From the IMG/VR virus record IMGVR_UViG_3300028025_000616, positions 1 to 25,516 of that record: a stretch of DNA of 25,516 nucleotides; one strand, given 5' to 3'. Positions 5,341-25,422 of this stretch are shown here, piece after piece. The position numbers and the translations under genes were made by a program. Each line of letters opens with the position of its first letter. Within the stretch, counting starts at the first letter, position 1. Under the pieces are notes generated by a model. It ran no database searches, had not been told where the DNA came from, and saw only the letters and a list, made by a program, of their open reading frames with translations. This DNA comes from a virus.

Positions 5341-5348
5341 TTTTATCC

Positions 5349-6479
5349 TTAACTCATTGCTTTATAAAGACCAAGTCCAGCTAAACCTAAACCGCCTACT
5401 TGTGAAGCTATACTTGGTTGTGGAACATATTGTGTTTGAGTTGAACCAAGAGCCCCTGCATTACCACGAAGAATATTACTGAGATATTCAAGTTGTTGTT
5501 TTTGATAATTACGTTTTTCCATTTCAGTTTGATAAGCCGTATCAAGTTGTTTTTGTTTAAATGCTTGAGGTTCAGCAGCACTTGCGGCTTGTGCTCTAAG
5601 TCTTTCAAGATTAGATTGTTGTTCTTGTGCGGCCGTAGCAGCTAGAGCTTTAGATGCATCTGTACCTACTTGTAATCCAGCAAGACCAATGTCTTTACCT
5701 AAACCTGCAGCATATTGCTGACCTTGTTGTGTTAATTGCGCGGCTTGCATTCTTCTAGCTTGGTCAGCATTAAATTGTTGTTGTGCTGATTGGAATCCTG
5801 CTTGACTTCCTTTAGCTTGAATATCACCTATATTTTGAGCTAAGTTTCTATCTTGTTCTGATTGCATTAAAGCTTGACGGGCACCGCCAAATGTACCACG
5901 ACCAATTGAGCCTAATGCTCCACGAGATCTTTCAATATCACCTTGACGTCTCGCTTCACGTAAAGCAATATCAGTAACACTTTGTTGATATGGGTTCATA
6001 TAAAATCCAGCTGCACCTTGATCAAATGTGCCGCCTTGAATGTCTTGCGGTTGGTATCCAAAAGCTTGATTTAAACCTTGAGCCGCGGCTCCATAACCCA
6101 TAGTTTGACCTACACCAAGACCTGAAGTTGCTTGGCCGAATCCGCCCGGAGTTCTTAATCCCGCAGTTTCTTGTTGAACTGCTATTTGACCTGGTTCAAA
6201 TCCTGCAAGTCTTTCACCTTCATAGGGTTGATAAGCTTTAATACCTATAACGTTGCCGCCACTAATAACTTTACCAGTATTTGGATCTCTAACTTCTGGC
6301 TCAGTTTCATAAATTTGTTTGCCAGTTTGCTTTAAAAGTTCTTGGTAGTATGGCTTAGCATATTCAGGTAAGTTTGTAGAATAAGAAGAAGTACTACCTC
6401 CACCTCCACCACCACTACTATAAAAAGTAAATGCTTTTACTAAGGTTTGTATCCAGTTAAATATGTTAAACATCTTCAT
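5349..6479 (-). CDS. Gln/Ala-rich internal virion (ejection) protein, 376 aa
   Basis: The protein has a short hydrophobic N-terminus, a Gly/Ser run at about 23-33, and a conserved-looking block (EYAKPYYQELLKQTG). A long helical region from about 160 to 340 is rich in Gln, Ala and Arg, beginning FYMNPYQQSVTDIALREAR and including RGTFGGARQALMQSEQDRN. The C-terminus is short and Gly/Leu-rich (VGGLGLAGLGLYKAM). The YMNPY...ARRQ...RGTFGGAR pattern is one I recall from many environmental phage structural proteins. Composition and position match the small ejection proteins of podoviruses (T7 gp14, P22 gp7/gp20 as functional analogues, not proven homologues). Its ATG overlaps the previous gene's TGA (ATGA), so the two are probably translationally coupled. 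Confidence 0.85.
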   Translation of the reverse strand: MKMFNIFNWIQTLVKAFTFYSSGGGGGGSTSSYSTNLPEYAKPYYQELLKQTGKQIYETEPEVRDPNTGKVISGGNVIGIKAYQPYEGERLAGFEPGQIAVQQETAGLRTPGGFGQATSGLGVGQTMGYGAAAQGLNQAFGYQPQDIQGGTFDQGAAGFYMNPYQQSVTDIALREARRQGDIERSRGALGSIGRGTFGGARQALMQSEQDRNLAQNIGDIQAKGSQAGFQSAQQQFNADQARRMQAAQLTQQGQQYAAGLGKDIGLAGLQVGTDASKALAATAAQEQQSNLERLRAQAASAAEPQAFKQKQLDTAYQTEMEKRNYQKQQLEYLSNILRGNAGALGSTQTQYVPQPSIASQVGGLGLAGLGLYKAMS

Positions 6480-20321: not shown

Positions 20322-20618
20322 TTACGCCATCGGACCGCGAGCTTTTGTACCTTTAGTAGCTGCACCGCAACCACGAATAGTAACTTCACCATTTCGATTA
20401 ATAACTTTAGAGCCCGGATCACCTGCGCTAACACGTTGTCTAGCTGTTTTAAAATTAAGGTCTTGTGATTTTAATTTATTAGGGTCTTGAGAAACCTCAA
20501 TATCTGAACTATTTGTATTCACTCTTGGTTGAATATACTTTTCTAACGGTTGTGCAGTATCAGCAGGGAAAAACTCAGTACCTGTTGATTGTGCTGCTGA
20601 TCTGTTATCTTTAGCCAT
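20322..20618 (-). CDS. Small protein with C-terminal Gly/Lys tag, 98 aa
   Basis: A polar protein with a Pro-containing middle (FFPADTAQPLEKYIQPRVN), a KTARQRVSAGDPGSK segment and a basic end, IRGCGAATKGTKARGPMA (81-98). That end is a diverged form of the GIAxxGKTxG tag seen in three nearby genes. It has one Cys (84). AAGGATAATTATC precedes ATG 20618. It is probably a minor virion or DNA-associated protein. The family is not recognised beyond its frequent occurrence in aquatic phages. Confidence 0.75.
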   Translation of the reverse strand: MAKDNRSAAQSTGTEFFPADTAQPLEKYIQPRVNTNSSDIEVSQDPNKLKSQDLNFKTARQRVSAGDPGSKVINRNGEVTIRGCGAATKGTKARGPMA

Positions 20619-20623
20619 GATAA

Positions 20624-20818
20624 TTATCCTTTTTTCTGTGCTGCAACTTTAGCCATACCGCGACCCATAGTTTTCATGTCAATGTTCTTTTTACCACCTT
20701 TAGAACCTGCATGTTTAGGGCCTTTTTGAATGCCTACTGAAGCGCCGTCATTACCTAAATTTTTACCTTTAGTTTTACCTTGTTTAGCAATACCATCTGC
20801 TGTTGATCTGAATCCCAT
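20624..20818 (-). CDS. Very small basic Gly/Lys protein with N-terminal tag, 64 aa
   Basis: About one quarter of residues are Lys or Arg and about one fifth are Gly. The tag STADGIAKQGKTKGKNLG is at residues 5-22, the only copy in this window near an N-terminus. A GASVGIQKGPKHAGSKGGKK stretch and a short C-terminal helix (MKTMGRGMAKVAAQKKG) follow. A strong AAGGAG ribosome site precedes ATG 20818, which argues that this short gene is real. It may bind nucleic acid by charge. No family is recognised with confidence. Confidence 0.72.
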   Translation of the reverse strand: MGFRSTADGIAKQGKTKGKNLGNDGASVGIQKGPKHAGSKGGKKNIDMKTMGRGMAKVAAQKKG

Positions 20819-20828
20819 ATACTTCTCC

Positions 20829-21260
20829 TTATGTTGTTGTTACTGTTACTGTGCCCACATTACCTATTCCTACTAGATCATTAGGCGTTAATCCAGCATC
20901 ATTCAATCTTGATCCGCCTACAGGATTCCAACCCCACTGAATAATTCGGCTACCTAATAGTGGTACACCTGTTTCACTTTGTAATGTTCCTGTTACTTCT
21001 AGCGTTTGTAACCCATTTAAACCTGATTGATAGTAACTTGGACTATCAGGTCTTGGATTTCTAACTGCTTGCGGATCATTAACTGGGTATAAACCTAGTG
21101 ATAATTGCGGTTGATCCGGTTCCCAGCATTCTGGACATACGAGTATATTAACATTTTTGGTCTTAATAACCAATCTTTTAAGTTGTTTAAGCTTATATCT
21201 AAACCCACAACGGTCACACTGCGATATGGCATTTTTACCGCTTGAATATTTACTTGGCAT
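20829..21260 (-). CDS. Zinc-ribbon virion-region protein, 143 aa
   Basis: Two CxxC knuckles (C15-DR-C18 and C42-PE-C45) are separated by 23 residues including basic KLKQLKRLVIKTK, forming a zinc ribbon. The rest (PVNDPQAVRNPRPDSPSYYQ, then LLGSRIIQWGWNPVGG) is Pro/Gly-rich and recalls a protein common in environmental phages next to the 307-aa type. The zinc site may be structural or bind DNA. Its place among connector-type genes suggests a virion or assembly role rather than a transcription factor. The start follows the upstream stop by a few bases. Confidence 0.82.
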   Translation of the reverse strand: MPSKYSSGKNAISQCDRCGFRYKLKQLKRLVIKTKNVNILVCPECWEPDQPQLSLGLYPVNDPQAVRNPRPDSPSYYQSGLNGLQTLEVTGTLQSETGVPLLGSRIIQWGWNPVGGSRLNDAGLTPNDLVGIGNVGTVTVTTT

Positions 21261-21264
21261 TTAA

Positions 21265-22188
21265 TTACCCGTGGTAAAACATTTCACGAGGTACAAACCT
21301 CACAGATGCTTTTTCTCTATCTTCGTCAGCTGCTAATTGGAACTGTTGTTCGTAATCTTGTTTAAGCATTTCTATACGACCTTCAGCACCTGGTAACTTA
21401 ACACTTAAATAGTAAGCGAGTCCTGCTACCATGCATGGAATAAATCTGAACGGAATATCTTCTACATTAAGCCCGTTACCTGCGTCTTGAATACGTCTTA
21501 ATCTGTAATAAACAAATGAATAGAAACTACTTTGATCAGGTGCTGGCCATACATTCACTGTAGGTAAGTTCTGAACATATATTTTAGATGCAGTTAAGTG
21601 TGTTGCAGCTGTTGTATTATTAACGCCACGTATGCAATCAATTAAGTCATTACCACTAATACCGCCATACTGAATCGTTTCGTTATCTACTTTAACAAAT
21701 CCAAATTGTGCTAAGCCTACAGTTGTTGTTAATGTAATTGTAGTTTCTGTCGCATCTAAAGCTTCAGCTGTAAGAATTGTAGTAGGGTTTTCTTGGCCGC
21801 TTTGTCTATTAATCCACACTTGGATCGGACGGCCTGTAGCATTTTTATTAGGTATAGTGATGTATGTTGATTCACTAATACGGTTGATATTAATGTCTTG
21901 TTGGTTTGATCCTGTTCCAGTGCGTGTCACCATGTCAAGCAAGTCAATCGTATCGACAGGCAACGGGTACATGATCTGGCCTTGGTTTAATTGAATCTGA
22001 CCAGGTTCTATAGTCCACATATTAATACCGCGGTTAGCCCACTCGATTGTCATAAGATTTAGTGAACGTCTTGCAGTTCTTAAATCATAACCCGTACGAA
22101 GTTCTTTACCGCATCTTTCAAATGCGTCTTCAACTAAGTTATTTAAATCTAAGTTAAAACTTGTTTGCCCTGTGGTTCTATCTACCAT
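21265..22188 (-). CDS. Virion connector/adaptor-like protein with inserted domain, 307 aa
   Basis: The N-terminal helices (NLVEDAFERCGKELRTGYDL, then RTARRSLNLMTIEWANRGIN), a beta block (MYPLPVDTIDLLDMV), and the C-terminal part (WPAPDQSSFYSFVYYRLRRI, FRFIPCMVAGLAYYLSVKLP) match an environmental phage structural family I recall. Residues about 138-207 look like an extra beta module (GFVKVDNETIQYGGISGNDL, then IRGVNNTTAATH), since the flanking parts would normally join directly. A helical tail with DYEQQFQLAADEDR ends the protein. It is probably part of the head-tail or tail-tube junction. ATG overlaps the previous stop (TAATG). Confidence 0.83.
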   Translation of the reverse strand: MVDRTTGQTSFNLDLNNLVEDAFERCGKELRTGYDLRTARRSLNLMTIEWANRGINMWTIEPGQIQLNQGQIMYPLPVDTIDLLDMVTRTGTGSNQQDININRISESTYITIPNKNATGRPIQVWINRQSGQENPTTILTAEALDATETTITLTTTVGLAQFGFVKVDNETIQYGGISGNDLIDCIRGVNNTTAATHLTASKIYVQNLPTVNVWPAPDQSSFYSFVYYRLRRIQDAGNGLNVEDIPFRFIPCMVAGLAYYLSVKLPGAEGRIEMLKQDYEQQFQLAADEDREKASVRFVPREMFYHG

Positions 22189-22439
22189 TATTTAACTCTT
22201 CTATAAGGTTTTACTTTTTGTTTAATTGATTTAGGTTGAGCTACAAACTGTTTACCTTTAGCTTTTCCTGCCCTTTTAGCTTTTGTTGTTGCTGCATACT
22301 CTTGCGGGCTTAATGCTTTAATTGCTTTTTCTGGTAAGTATCTTTCACCTGTCTCACTAGACTTTTTACCAGACTTAGTTGTCCACTTTTGCTCACCCCA
22401 TGCTTTTAGTGAACGTTGCGGTTTAGCTAATGCACTCAC
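22188..22439 (-). CDS. Small basic protein, DUF5872-like, 83 aa
   Basis: A very basic protein, SLKAWGEQKWTTKSGKKSS followed by GERYLPEKAIKALSPQEYAA and a Lys-rich end. The W-x-x-Q-K-W-T/R-T-K-S/D-G-K pattern and YLPxKAxKALSPxEYAAT are features I recall from short cyanophage and environmental phage proteins (DUF5872-type; name from memory). It begins with GTG, overlapping the upstream TGA as GTGA, so coupling rather than a strong ribosome site sets the start. The function is unknown. A DNA-binding or virion-packaged role is possible. Confidence 0.75.
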   Translation of the reverse strand: MSALAKPQRSLKAWGEQKWTTKSGKKSSETGERYLPEKAIKALSPQEYAATTKAKRAGKAKGKQFVAQPKSIKQKVKPYRRVK

Positions 22440-22732
22440 TTATATCCACCACCTGCAGCTTTATATTTCTTAGCTACTAACTGAGCTTTACGAGCTGACC
22501 ATTGACCAGCACCTGTACCGTGTGTTGCAGCGGATTTAACTTGTGACACTATTCTTTTACGTAAACTAGGCTTTGTGTAGTTACCTGCTTTGTTTACTGT
22601 GCCACCTTCTTTAAACTGAGTAAAGTCTGTGTTGTCACGACGTTTTTTAACCACGCCCTTAGGCATAGTGTTCTCAGTAGCACTAGGTATCTTAGACTTT
22701 TTAATAGCGCCCATACCTCGTGAAGGTCTCAT
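22436..22732 (-). CDS. Small basic protein with GQWSARKAQ motif, 98 aa
   Basis: A Lys/Arg-rich protein with an FKEGGTVNKAGNYTKPSLRK block. The highly characteristic end (VKSAATHGTGAGQWSARKAQ, then LVAKKYKAAGGGYK) is one I recall in many environmental phage genomes without a known role. The basic helical end could contact nucleic acid. The start overlaps the upstream stop as TAATG and the end overlaps the next gene's GTG start. It is part of the run of small basic genes on the right side of the window. Confidence 0.8.
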   Translation of the reverse strand: MRPSRGMGAIKKSKIPSATENTMPKGVVKKRRDNTDFTQFKEGGTVNKAGNYTKPSLRKRIVSQVKSAATHGTGAGQWSARKAQLVAKKYKAAGGGYK

Positions 22733-23481
22733 TATCTTCTGCCTTTTAATTTTGGCATTGGTTTTTTTAATAAACTAGATAACCCTAGTCCAGGAACTGG
22801 AGCTGGTTGTCGAACAAGAGGTTGTTGTACTTGTGGTTGTCCATAAGCAGCTTGTATTTCTGGTCTACCAGCTAACCCTAAAGGTTGTTGTACTTGTGGT
22901 ACAGGTCTTGATGCATCTAATTGTGCTTGTAGTGCTGCAAGTTGTTCTGGGGTAGCTGACTGACCTCTTGATGGAGCATAACCAGGAAGGTTTGATGGCG
23001 TAGTAGTTGTTGGTGGTAATCTTGATGCATCTAATTGTGCTTGTAGTGCTGCAAGTTGTTCTGGGGTAGCTGACTGACCTCCGCCTTTACCGCCTTGTGC
23101 TGGAACTTGACCCGGAGCTGGTTGTTGTACTTGTGGTTGATCCATCATACTATTTACATATGGTTGAGCATAGCCAGGGAGAGTTCCTGTGCGTGTTCCA
23201 TCAGGGTTTTGTGCTTTACCGCCTTGTGCTGGTACTTGACCAGGAGCTGGTTGTTGTACTTGTGCTGGTACTTGATTAGCCATAAGTCTGTCTATGTCCG
23301 CTGGAGAGTAACCGCCTAAGGTACGTGGTGGAACTTGACCGGGTTGAGCTCCGCCTTTACCGCCTTGTGGTGGTAGTGTAGAACCTTGTCCTGGTGGTGC
23401 TAATGTTGGTCTTGGAGATTGAACTCCGCCTTTACCACCTTGTGGTGGTAGTGTTGATCCTGGTTTTGCTGCTCCGGCCAT
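22732..23481 (-). CDS. Pro/Gln/Gly-rich repeat protein, 249 aa
   Basis: Almost wholly low-complexity. Units of GSTLPPQGGKGG occur twice and VQQPAPGQVPAQGGK-type units two or three times, with related shorter fragments. QSATPEQLAALQAQLDASR appears twice, identical, from a 62-base exact DNA repeat. The end is basic (LLKKPMPKLKGRR). The sequence predicts a flexible, disordered protein with two short helices. AAGGAG before ATG 23481 and a TAATG overlap at the end support expression. I recognise no family. It may be a spacer or scaffold-like virion protein. Repeat copy number is likely to differ among related phages. Confidence 0.78.
   Translation of the reverse strand: MAGAAKPGSTLPPQGGKGGVQSPRPTLAPPGQGSTLPPQGGKGGAQPGQVPPRTLGGYSPADIDRLMANQVPAQVQQPAPGQVPAQGGKAQNPDGTRTGTLPGYAQPYVNSMMDQPQVQQPAPGQVPAQGGKGGGQSATPEQLAALQAQLDASRLPPTTTTPSNLPGYAPSRGQSATPEQLAALQAQLDASRPVPQVQQPLGLAGRPEIQAAYGQPQVQQPLVRQPAPVPGLGLSSLLKKPMPKLKGRR
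22906..23081 (-). repeat. 62-base exact direct repeat pair
   Basis: Bases 22906-22967 and 23020-23081 are identical, 114 bases apart (38 codons, in frame). They encode the two helical QSATPEQLAALQAQLDASR segments of the 249-aa protein. Shorter related repeats flank them (around 23081-23140 and 23214-23270; 23351-23380 and 23428-23455). Confidence 0.92.
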
Positions 23482-23482
23482 A

Positions 23483-23872
23483 TTATATCTCCTTGTACAT
23501 TTGTACTTGCGTACATCTATATCCTATATTGTTTAAAAAACTTTTAGTCCAACCAGGTCTACCTGATAATGTTACCACAGTGCAACCTTGACTCTTTGCC
23601 CATTCAATAATACCTGGTTCCATATCTTGTAGTTCTTTTATATCACCACCAGCTAGGAAAAAATGTATTACTTTCTTCTTTGGATAATTTACAATTTGTG
23701 TCACTACAGCTGAGTTTTTGCCCGGCCAAAATTGTGCATTACCATTCATTACATCTTCAAAAACATTACTTATATCAAACGTACCATGAGCATAGTCTAG
23801 AGCATTCTCTAACCATTGTTCACAGCGTTTAAATTCGTCAACCCAGTCATAACGACTATAATCTACTGGCAT
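23483..23872 (-). CDS. GNAT-like phage protein, 129 aa
   Basis: The fold pattern reads as a degenerate GNAT: a helical N-terminus (WVDEFKRCEQWLENALDYAH), paired strands (AQFWPGKNSAVVTQIVNYPK, KVIHFFLAGGDIKELQDM), a helix with IIEWAKSQGCTVVTLSGRPG, and a last segment WTKSFLNNIGYR. The block of LAGGD, WAK-x-x-GC and GRxGW...GYR is one I recall from many environmental podovirus-like genomes. T7 gp13 is a GNAT-fold virion protein, so an assembly role is more likely than acetylation. No convincing acetyl-CoA loop is visible. The ribosome site is weak (GAGGA too far from ATG 23872), so translation probably couples to the gene upstream. Confidence 0.82.
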   Translation of the reverse strand: MPVDYSRYDWVDEFKRCEQWLENALDYAHGTFDISNVFEDVMNGNAQFWPGKNSAVVTQIVNYPKKKVIHFFLAGGDIKELQDMEPGIIEWAKSQGCTVVTLSGRPGWTKSFLNNIGYRCTQVQMYKEI

Positions 23873-23876
23873 TTTA

Positions 23877-24203
23877 TTAGCAGATTTTTCCTCTAGTTTT
23901 GCCTTTTACAGCAATACCATCTGCACGTTTAGAAGCTGAAGATTTAACTGAACCACCTGAAGCCATTTTTTTAATCATGCCACCTTTTTTCTTATATATT
24001 ACCCGACCCTTTTCATCCTTTTTTACATTAGGAAATTCAATTGCTTGTTCAGGAAGGTCTTTCATTTTAGGTAATTGTTCATACTCTTCTTTTGATAACA
24101 TTTCTAGTCCTGTACGGTTACGGTATGGACCCATATCATTTTCTGATGAGCCTACAGTTGCTTCAAAGTTTTTTCTTTTTTCTGCTTCAGTTAATTTAGC
24201 CAT
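23877..24203 (-). CDS. Small basic protein with GG motif and C-terminal tag, 108 aa
   Basis: The N-terminal two thirds are charged (KLTEAEKRKNFEATVGSSEN, then MLSKEEYEQLPKMKDLPEQA). A Lys-rich hinge leads to KKKGGMIKKMASGGSV (71-86), then SSASKRADGIAVKGKTRGKI, closing with Cys. Both motifs recur in neighbouring genes. The C-terminal tag is nearly identical to that of the 185-aa protein upstream, although the two N-termini are unrelated. ATG overlaps the previous stop (TAATG). It is a probable virion or DNA-associated protein. The function is unknown. Confidence 0.78.
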   Translation of the reverse strand: MAKLTEAEKRKNFEATVGSSENDMGPYRNRTGLEMLSKEEYEQLPKMKDLPEQAIEFPNVKKDEKGRVIYKKKGGMIKKMASGGSVKSSASKRADGIAVKGKTRGKIC

Positions 24204-24760
24204 TAAATATTCCTTCCTCTTGTTTTACCGCGAACTGCAATACCATTAGCTTTAGCAAGTTGACCGCCTTTAGAATAACCACAACCTTTAGCCATACCGC
24301 CTTTTTTCATGCCATGTTCTTTCATTTCTTCGGCTTTAGTTTCTTTTTTCTCGTGTTTCATCATAGCAGCTTTAGATGCATATTTCTCGCCTGTACCTTT
24401 TTCTACGATGCCACCTTTTTTCATTTTGTGCATTGATGATTCATGTCCCTTAACTTCTTTTTTAGCGATCATCTTTGCATCTGATTTTGTTGCACAACCA
24501 CCTTTTGCATAGCCTTTAGCCATACCACCTTTTTTCATGTAGCCCATTTTATTTCTAACCTCCGTTGGTAATTTTGATAATCCAGGATTGTCACTTGAGT
24601 CAACTTCTTTAAGTGCTCCACCTGATCCGAACTTCTTAGTTTTATCTGCTTTCATAAACTCTTCTCCTACTGATTTTGATATACCAACTTTTTTAGCAAA
24701 TTTTGGGTTATTAGCCACTGCAGCCATTAAGTTGTGTTGTGCTTTAGATTTACTAGGCAT
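24203..24760 (-). CDS. Lys/Gly-rich protein with repeated MKKGG motifs and C-terminal tag, 185 aa
   Basis: The N-terminus (MPSKSKAQHNLMAAVANNPK, then FAKKVGISKSVGEEFMKADK) is highly characteristic of a small protein found in many environmental phages. The centre and end hold three MKKGG units (about 75, 114 and 151), two of them followed by a second GG within nine residues. Cysteines at 89 and 160 lie inside these units. The C-terminal tag is AKANGIAVRGKTRGRNI. Very basic overall. The N-terminal part may be a small folded domain and the rest a flexible basic tail, suited to binding DNA or the capsid interior. The role is not known. Confidence 0.82.
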   Translation of the reverse strand: MPSKSKAQHNLMAAVANNPKFAKKVGISKSVGEEFMKADKTKKFGSGGALKEVDSSDNPGLSKLPTEVRNKMGYMKKGGMAKGYAKGGCATKSDAKMIAKKEVKGHESSMHKMKKGGIVEKGTGEKYASKAAMMKHEKKETKAEEMKEHGMKKGGMAKGCGYSKGGQLAKANGIAVRGKTRGRNI

Positions 24761-24940
24761 TTAATCAGCCTTTGTATCTGTGTGTTGAACTTCTACTTCA
24801 ACTTTAGTTTCTTTTTTACTAGGCTTGATAGTTTCGACAGCAACTTCTGTAACTTCTTCTGTAACTTCTGAATGAGTAATTTCATCTAATAATTCCTTTT
24901 GTTTTTTCATTTTAAACACCTTTTCTATAAAAGTTTTCAT
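24761..24940 (-). CDS. Short acidic/Thr-Val-rich protein, 59 aa
   Basis: The gap between two genes holds an intact small gene with ATG at 24940 directly after the upstream TAA and its own TAA directly before the next ATG. It reads MKTFIEKVFKMKKQKELLDE, then Glu/Val/Thr-rich sequence with EVTEEVTEVAVE, to a polar end. A second in-frame ATG at 24910 has a better placed AAAGGTG, so a 49-aa form is possible. Its exact fit between neighbours is the main support. No family is recognised. Confidence 0.6.
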   Translation of the reverse strand: MKTFIEKVFKMKKQKELLDEITHSEVTEEVTEVAVETIKPSKKETKVEVEVQHTDTKAD

Positions 24941-25162
24941 TTATTTACCTAGCCAATGAGTTACCATCCAGCTTATAACACCTGATATAACAGTAGCGAT
25001 AGCAATAAATACTTTCCAACCGCCTTTGATTTCTTCTAGTGTTTTTTCAATACCATCTAGACGGGCTTTTAATTGTTCCATGTCTTCCATAATACTATCC
25101 ACATCTGATTGAATATGCTTAATTTCTACACCGTGTTCTATAACTTCGCGTTCTGCACTCAT
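24941..25162 (-). CDS. Coiled-coil plus C-terminal membrane segment, XhlA-like, 73 aa
   Basis: Residues 1-47 are an acidic/basic heptad helix (VIEHGVEIKHIQSDVDSIME, LKARLDGIEKTLEEIKGG). Residues about 49-70 are one transmembrane segment (VFIAIATVISGVISWMVTHW) with a short tail. This order and length match haemolysin XhlA-type phage proteins, which assist holins, and small phage holins. It lies about 13 kb from the holin and lysozyme, so it may be an accessory membrane protein rather than the main holin. An AAGGTGG site precedes ATG 25162, which overlaps the upstream TGA (ATGA). Confidence 0.78.
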   Translation of the reverse strand: MSAEREVIEHGVEIKHIQSDVDSIMEDMEQLKARLDGIEKTLEEIKGGWKVFIAIATVISGVISWMVTHWLGK

Positions 25163-25422
25163 TTACAATTCCACCTTTTTAGTGATGCGGCTTTCCTAGT
25201 AGGTCTACCTTTTTCATCTTTCATAGGACCAGGCATGCCAGACATTCTAGCACAAAATGACTTCTTGCGAGCGCCACCTTGTGGTTGAGGAGCCTTTAGG
25301 TTTGACCCAGTAGCTGCGTTATACTTTGCACGACCTTTAGCCGTGAGCCCTGCACCTTTAGACACAGGAAGTTTTTCACCACGTCCAACTGCTAAGCTAG
25401 GACCTTTTTTCTTGTTAGCCAT
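25159..25422 (-). CDS. Small basic protein, DUF6321-like, 87 aa
   Basis: Contains LTAKGRAKYNAATGSNLKAP, KKSFCARMSGMPGPMKDEKG and RPTRKAASLKRWNCK. The combination of a G-L-x-A-K-G-R-x-x-Y-N start, SFCARMxG and a final R-x-W-x-C is one I recall for a small domain of phage and environmental proteins (DUF6321; name from memory). Two conserved Cys (positions 61 and 86) could bind a metal or bond. Very basic, so it may contact DNA. The start codon overlaps the stop of the upstream gene. Confidence 0.8.
   Translation of the reverse strand: MANKKKGPSLAVGRGEKLPVSKGAGLTAKGRAKYNAATGSNLKAPQPQGGARKKSFCARMSGMPGPMKDEKGRPTRKAASLKRWNCK

Follow-up and report, generated by a model that had tools for sequence, protein, structure and literature searches.

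What, if anything, unites four small proteins of one virus that carry the same short Gly/Lys-rich peptide on otherwise unlike bodies? The proteins are encoded on the minus strand of a 25,516-nt stretch of viral DNA, IMG/VR record IMGVR_UViG_3300028025_000616, positions 1–25,516 (the whole stretch is hereafter the window). The peptide, referred to below as the tag, is conserved, prefers the C-terminus, is restricted to a single phage lineage, is encoded in the head module of that lineage and is attached to bodies of many kinds. It occurs in two related forms, A and B. The original prediction, that the four copies represent one common sorting signal, placed them correctly: all were found in minus-strand open reading frames (ORFs), and a blastp comparison of the four bodies detected no mutual resemblance, as had been said.

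24203–24760, minus strand: 185-aa protein with the SKAQH module at residues 1–43, a KKGG-rich middle and tag form A at the C-terminus, AKANGIAVRGKTRGRNI
24206–24256, minus strand: form A tag at the C-terminus of the 185-aa protein; core GIAVRGKT at 24221–24244, five residues from the C-terminus
23877–24203, minus strand: 108-aa protein with a C-terminal form A tag, SSASKRADGIAVKGKTRGKIC
23880–23930, minus strand: form A tag at the C-terminus of the 108-aa protein; core GIAVKGKT at 23895–23918, five residues from the C-terminus
20624–20818, minus strand: conserved protein of 64 aa; a tag version, ADGIAKQGKTKG, is at the N-terminus and a helix at the C-terminus
20753–20806, minus strand: N-terminal copy of the tag in the 64-aa protein; core GIAKQGKT at 20771–20794, eight residues from the N-terminus
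20322–20618, minus strand: 98-aa conserved protein with tag form B at its end, IRGCGAATKGTKARGPMA
20325–20378, minus strand: form B tag at the C-terminus of the 98-aa protein; core GAATKGTK at 20343–20366, six residues from the C-terminus

The copies are not a by-product of Lys/Gly-rich composition, because composition-preserving shuffles give far fewer of them: 0.0017 expected in the four carriers and 0.005 in all 31 window proteins tested, with four copies reached in 0 of 2000 shuffles. No further copy of the predicted motif was found among these 31 proteins. Against a profile built from homologues, the form A copies of the window scored 47.0 bits (108-aa protein), 32.1 bits (185-aa protein) and 28.6 bits, and the form B copy of the 98-aa protein scored 16.7 bits, while no reversed sequence reached 15 bits. 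The copy in the 98-aa protein had been taken for a diverged tag; it belongs instead to a sister form, which 55 of the 62 homologues of the 98-aa protein retain at the C-terminus. The two forms can be aligned with each other (RADGIATKGKT-RGKMV against RGCGAATKGTKARGPMA, both running to the stop codon), and in an alignment of 87 proteins from both, tag columns G173 and G178 show no variation and R170 and A175 almost none. Most relatives of the 108-aa protein resemble it only over the final 30–40 residues. In the 64-aa family (58 aligned rows), G9, G14, K15 and T16 are invariant, and the structure model of the window member has helices at residues 45–63 only.

The tag is abundant and strongly biased toward protein ends. 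A scan of IMG/VR with a degenerate nucleotide pattern encoding ADG[IC]Ax[KR]GKT[KR]G (about 40 bits) yielded at least 185 matches in at least 120 stretches, every one in frame within an ORF; a codon-scrambled pattern of equal information had no match in the same database. About three-quarters of the form A matches listed lie exactly three residues before the stop, and the remainder mostly 10–14 residues from it, e.g., GKTKGTMVKMxxGGxC running to the stop. The commonest version of form B, RGxGAAx[KR]GxxFxG, has at least 130 matches in IMG/VR; among those listed, 127 of 130 are 0–3 residues from the stop, 119 of them at exactly two. A profile made from 270 tails found 747 ORFs scoring at least 15 bits in the fetched loci, and no reversed sequence attained that score. 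Most of these copies end 0–1 residues from the C-terminus, and N-terminal copies occur only in the 64-aa family. A lack of terminal bias in homologues, which would have counted against a sorting signal, is thus not what was seen in either form. Bacterial and archaeal genomes totaling 257 Gb contain just five stretches matching the form A pattern, of which four are contigs of metagenome-assembled genomes with a typical tail, one closing a 613-aa ORF. The fifth, in Streptomyces, is not a tag. One 5.9-kb contig (L008) holds five tag copies in total, two of them in tandem near the C-terminus of a single 153-aa protein (5343–5467).

The residues G, A, G, K, T and G do not change across 298 C-terminal copies while their codons do, although the fixation of K-T and G is partly imposed by the search pattern. 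Since the codons vary and the residues do not, the conserved unit is the peptide.

The bodies to which the tag is attached are very diverse. The 551 tagged proteins with bodies of at least 70 residues fall into 227 clusters, 178 of which are singletons; the median length of tagged proteins is 124 aa. Between phages whose head-tail adaptors are 95–99.9% identical, a counterpart in the partner phage was found for just 42% of tagged bodies. Untagged ORFs of the same genomic island turn over similarly (56% in the same comparison), therefore the island is variable as a whole. Flanking families were always alignable, a control that is conditional on the family being present in both loci. Among the nine nearest relatives of the window, five with 90–91% identical adaptors have none of its tagged bodies.

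All but a few tagged loci belong to one phage lineage, whose genes are carried by 118 of 120 form A loci and 117 of 119 form B loci among those listed. Its named members are Pelagibacter phage HTVC023P, phage DSL-LC04, CRP-901 and Planktothrix phage Pag-Yong1, and the order terL–portal–GroES–major capsid protein (MCP)–adaptor in the HTVC023P/DSL-LC04/Pag-Yong1 lineage is the same as in the tagged loci. The fuller order is terL, portal, GroES, a scaffold candidate, two small genes, MCP, the SFCAR family, a variable island, the QWSARKAQ family, an 83-aa family, the adaptor, a Zn-finger-like gene, the 64-aa gene, the 98-aa gene and a 213-aa gene; the 98-aa gene holds this place, upstream of the 213-aa gene, on contigs with synteny too. 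The 25.5-kb record ends before MCP, portal and terminase, which relatives (e.g., L209 and L124) carry in synteny. Two features tie the window to this order:

21265–22188, minus strand: head-tail adaptor of the SU10/Pam1 type (Pfam PF24175, 5e-08), the landmark of the lineage
22732–25158, minus strand: variable island, which in the lineage holds most form A genes, between the SFCAR (25159–25422) and QWSARKAQ (22436–22732) families

Homologues of the window adaptor are present in DSL-LC04, HTVC023P and CRP-901, with syntenic small genes beside them. A tblastn search of cultured phages with the short tag peptide returned nothing, for which the short query is probably to blame; tags in cultured relatives were found by reading their C-termini. 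HTVC023P has two form B tails, on gp32 (QGZ17661.1) and gp51 (QGZ17680.1), and Pag-Yong1 one form-A-like tail, on a 308-aa protein (UMO75986.1). A homologue of a tagged family in phage DSL-LC04 (L279:7313–7657) ends differently, TSKGQGRVIRSKKTRIC, and possibly represents a third tail type in that branch. A search for a third type among untagged ORFs returned mainly A/B variants and orthologous families.

Within the lineage, tagged genes concentrate in the head-morphogenesis module, in agreement with the expectation that hits would cluster in structural regions. The interval between the SFCAR and QWSARKAQ families holds 178 of the 203 form A copies on contigs that include MCP as well as adaptor, and form B genes are mostly around the portal gene. 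Every form A ORF that could be placed (738 of 738) is on the strand of the head genes, and tagged genes, 1–6 per island, are present in 153 of 156 complete islands. The core virion genes are without the tag, as none was found in MCP (148 sequences), portal (121), scaffold candidate (101) or adaptor (261). In the SFCAR family it is present in 20 of 181 members, appended past the usual final residues. The SFCAR protein of the window (25159–25422), which has the conserved ..FCAR..W-C end, is untagged, and according to PHROG profiles the SFCAR module is C-terminal in phage proteins of much greater length.

The form of the tag also follows the capsid lineage. On the MCP tree, all 53 form A rows fall in one clade (support 100/100), which also includes 20 rows with no recognized tag and two form B rows; 27 of 29 form B rows are outside it. 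Among loci of at least 8 kb, the profile assigns 118 to form A only, 46 to form B only, 12 to both and 15 to neither, and in 10 of the 12 with both forms this is due to the conserved 98-aa gene or a similar one. One short contig inside the form A clade (L300) has two B-tagged genes, with one body 54–64% identical to A-tagged proteins. This matching is correlative and is compatible with a tail that has to suit a partner.

Because many exchangeable bodies share a constant tail, and because of the head-module position and the lineage matching, we favor the reading of the tag as a docking signal. The tag would be a short linear motif of about 16–25 residues, by which unrelated and quickly exchanged small proteins may be recruited to a single common partner while the head or the head-tail junction is being assembled. 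That partner would probably belong to the assembling capsid, as scaffold, capsid or portal protein; the carriers may end up in virions as cargo or accessory components, where the bodies could act on the host or stabilize the particle. We give this reading a probability of roughly one half. A putative link between a tagged body and the virion comes through the N-terminal SKAQH module of the 185-aa protein and no other body: the module matches phrog_16759, phrog_22033 and phrog_25121, PHROG families annotated as virion structural. Of the sorting signal originally proposed, a shared and terminal signal on unrelated small basic proteins of a morphogenesis region is borne out, and virion presence and a binding target are putative. 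The proposal as a whole is partly supported, and packaging into the head, or binding of a virion partner, is still the best of the options then offered.

Several observations weigh against the docking reading. No virion proteomics of a tagged phage was found. Some tags are N-terminal (64-aa family), some lie 10–14 residues short of the stop and some are tandem copies (L008), therefore a free C-terminus is not needed. The lineage members HTVC027P, psg01, DSL-LC04 and CRP-901 have no recognizable A or B tags. For the 64-aa and 108-aa proteins, AlphaFold gives models of low confidence (predicted local distance difference test, pLDDT, 57–60). Finally, the turnover of bodies may be overstated, as short low-complexity sequences diverge fast. 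The tag alone has no predicted fold in these models, and no meaningful match emerged from PDB sequence searches for the tag, for the 185-aa protein and for two neighboring small proteins.

A shared partner could also lie outside the virion, since the evidence indicates such a partner without saying which. The tagged proteins would then act in the infected cell, docked to, e.g., the phage GroES with host GroEL or the replication machinery, and a GroES gene is indeed conserved in the same module. We consider this unlikely, however, as the position and strand of the island are tied to head genes and the lineage restriction follows the capsid/portal module. Tag and bodies are both basic (K+R 20% and D+E 12% in the bodies), as would suit a tail that aids small basic proteins in binding or condensing packaged DNA. 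This explanation, and with it the earlier suggestion of plain DNA binding, is improbable: the fixed positions G, A, G, K, T and G, next to interchangeable K/R elsewhere, exceed what charge needs, form B has xxF in place of KT, and the tag is nearly absent from the bacterial and archaeal genomes described above.

It is more doubtful still that the tag is a maturation site, also among the earlier suggestions, at which the end is cut as the head matures, or a stability signal that shields the protein from host proteases. The terminal position would suit either role, and in T4 targeting sequences are cleaved by the prohead protease; yet the motif is at the very end and sometimes internal, tandem or N-terminal, and it lacks a conserved acidic cut motif of the T4 type. 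Moreover, no gp21-type prohead protease was recognized among the annotated genes examined from terL to adaptor, an annotation-based result that does not prove absence.

Repeated gene ends in a variable island could aid shuffling, the tag then being a recombination anchor for cassette exchange by homologous recombination and the peptide having no role. We regard this as very unlikely. The tag DNA differs synonymously between copies, with residues constant where codons vary, and exact runs are short: their median is 9 nt within contigs versus 8 nt between contigs, and 12 of 121 within-contig pairs reach 20 nt. A second DNA-level signal is confined to the final codons. The Gly of codon 12 is GGA or GGG in 68% of copies versus 3% for the Gly of codon 8, and in 468 of 477 cases no more than 30 nt separate the stop from the next ATG. 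The final tag codons, GGA-AAG/AGG, also form a Shine-Dalgarno sequence for the gene that follows, which explains the codon bias there; in the window, the last codons of the 185-aa gene, AGA GGA AGG, precede the 108-aa gene in this way (24203–24230). A ribosome-binding site as the main cause of conservation is refuted by the codon pattern and has next to no probability, as it covers only the last 2–3 codons and does not account for the G-x-A-x-[KR]-G-K-T part, where codon choice is free, or for N-terminal and internal copies.

Two known targeting systems resemble the proposed docking tag. The capsid-targeting sequence of T4 is N-terminal and is removed by the prohead protease. Like the tagged proteins (551 proteins, 227 clusters, two related forms), the T4 carriers combine diverse bodies with one short terminal peptide, whereas the T4 peptide is unrelated in sequence, and the tag is mostly C-terminal and Gly/Lys-rich. 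The T4 carriers lie inside the mature head; for the tagged proteins such a location is putative. The T4 internal proteins are highly diverse small proteins sharing this short conserved terminal peptide (PMC3012670). The second system is that of encapsulins, whose cargo-loading peptides are usually C-terminal and in this respect similar to the tag, a short, mostly C-terminal peptide on carrier proteins. Encapsulins, however, are compartments of cells, take up one or a few cargo families and have a shell gene not accompanied by phage assembly genes. The tagged bodies, by contrast, number in the hundreds and are encoded in a phage head module with terminase, portal and adaptor, and binding of their tag to the inner face of an HK97-fold shell protein, as in encapsulins, is conjectural. 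Short targeting peptides load encapsulin cargo into an HK97-fold shell (PMC8346489, PMC10960027). Targeting peptides as such are already known, and the tag, which is unlike them in sequence, terminus, lineage and carrier number, appears to be new: no description of it was found in the literature searched, including that on HTVC023P, DSL-LC04 and Pag-Yong1, or in family libraries.

More tentatively, the island could be a plug-in site with a lineage-wide cargo-loading code, by which almost any small protein might become host-delivered virion cargo through a tail of 16–25 residues, marine and freshwater branches using two co-adapted versions. The phages bearing tags are among the most abundant of the ocean and lakes, and the tail predicts which of their uncharacterized proteins, hundreds of them, have a common destination, testable in the cultured phages HTVC023P and Pag-Yong1. 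The tag may thereby reveal a fast-evolving, virion-delivered protein set in dominant aquatic phages, and could find use as a small natural peptide that carries proteins into phage heads.

Some observations concern individual bodies and neighbors in the window. When 87 tagged proteins were searched against Pfam, NCBIfam, PHROGs and PADLOC, the only annotation obtained was “virion structural protein,” for three with the SKAQH module. Residues 1–43 of the 185-aa protein, MPSKSKAQHNLM..VGEEFMKADK, are 72–74% identical to PHIKZ165.1 of the phiKZ group, and the module is also found in annotated structural proteins of the jumbo phages PBECO4 and vB_KvM-Eowyn; judged by sequence similarity, it is common to jumbo phages and the tagged lineage of smaller phages. 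The island of the window further contains an untagged 129-aa protein (23483–23872) with weak matches to PHROGs, one for an acetyltransferase and others of unknown function, and a 249-aa Gln/Pro/Gly-rich protein (22732–23481) with repeated LPPQGGKGG and SATPEQLAALQAQLDASR units.

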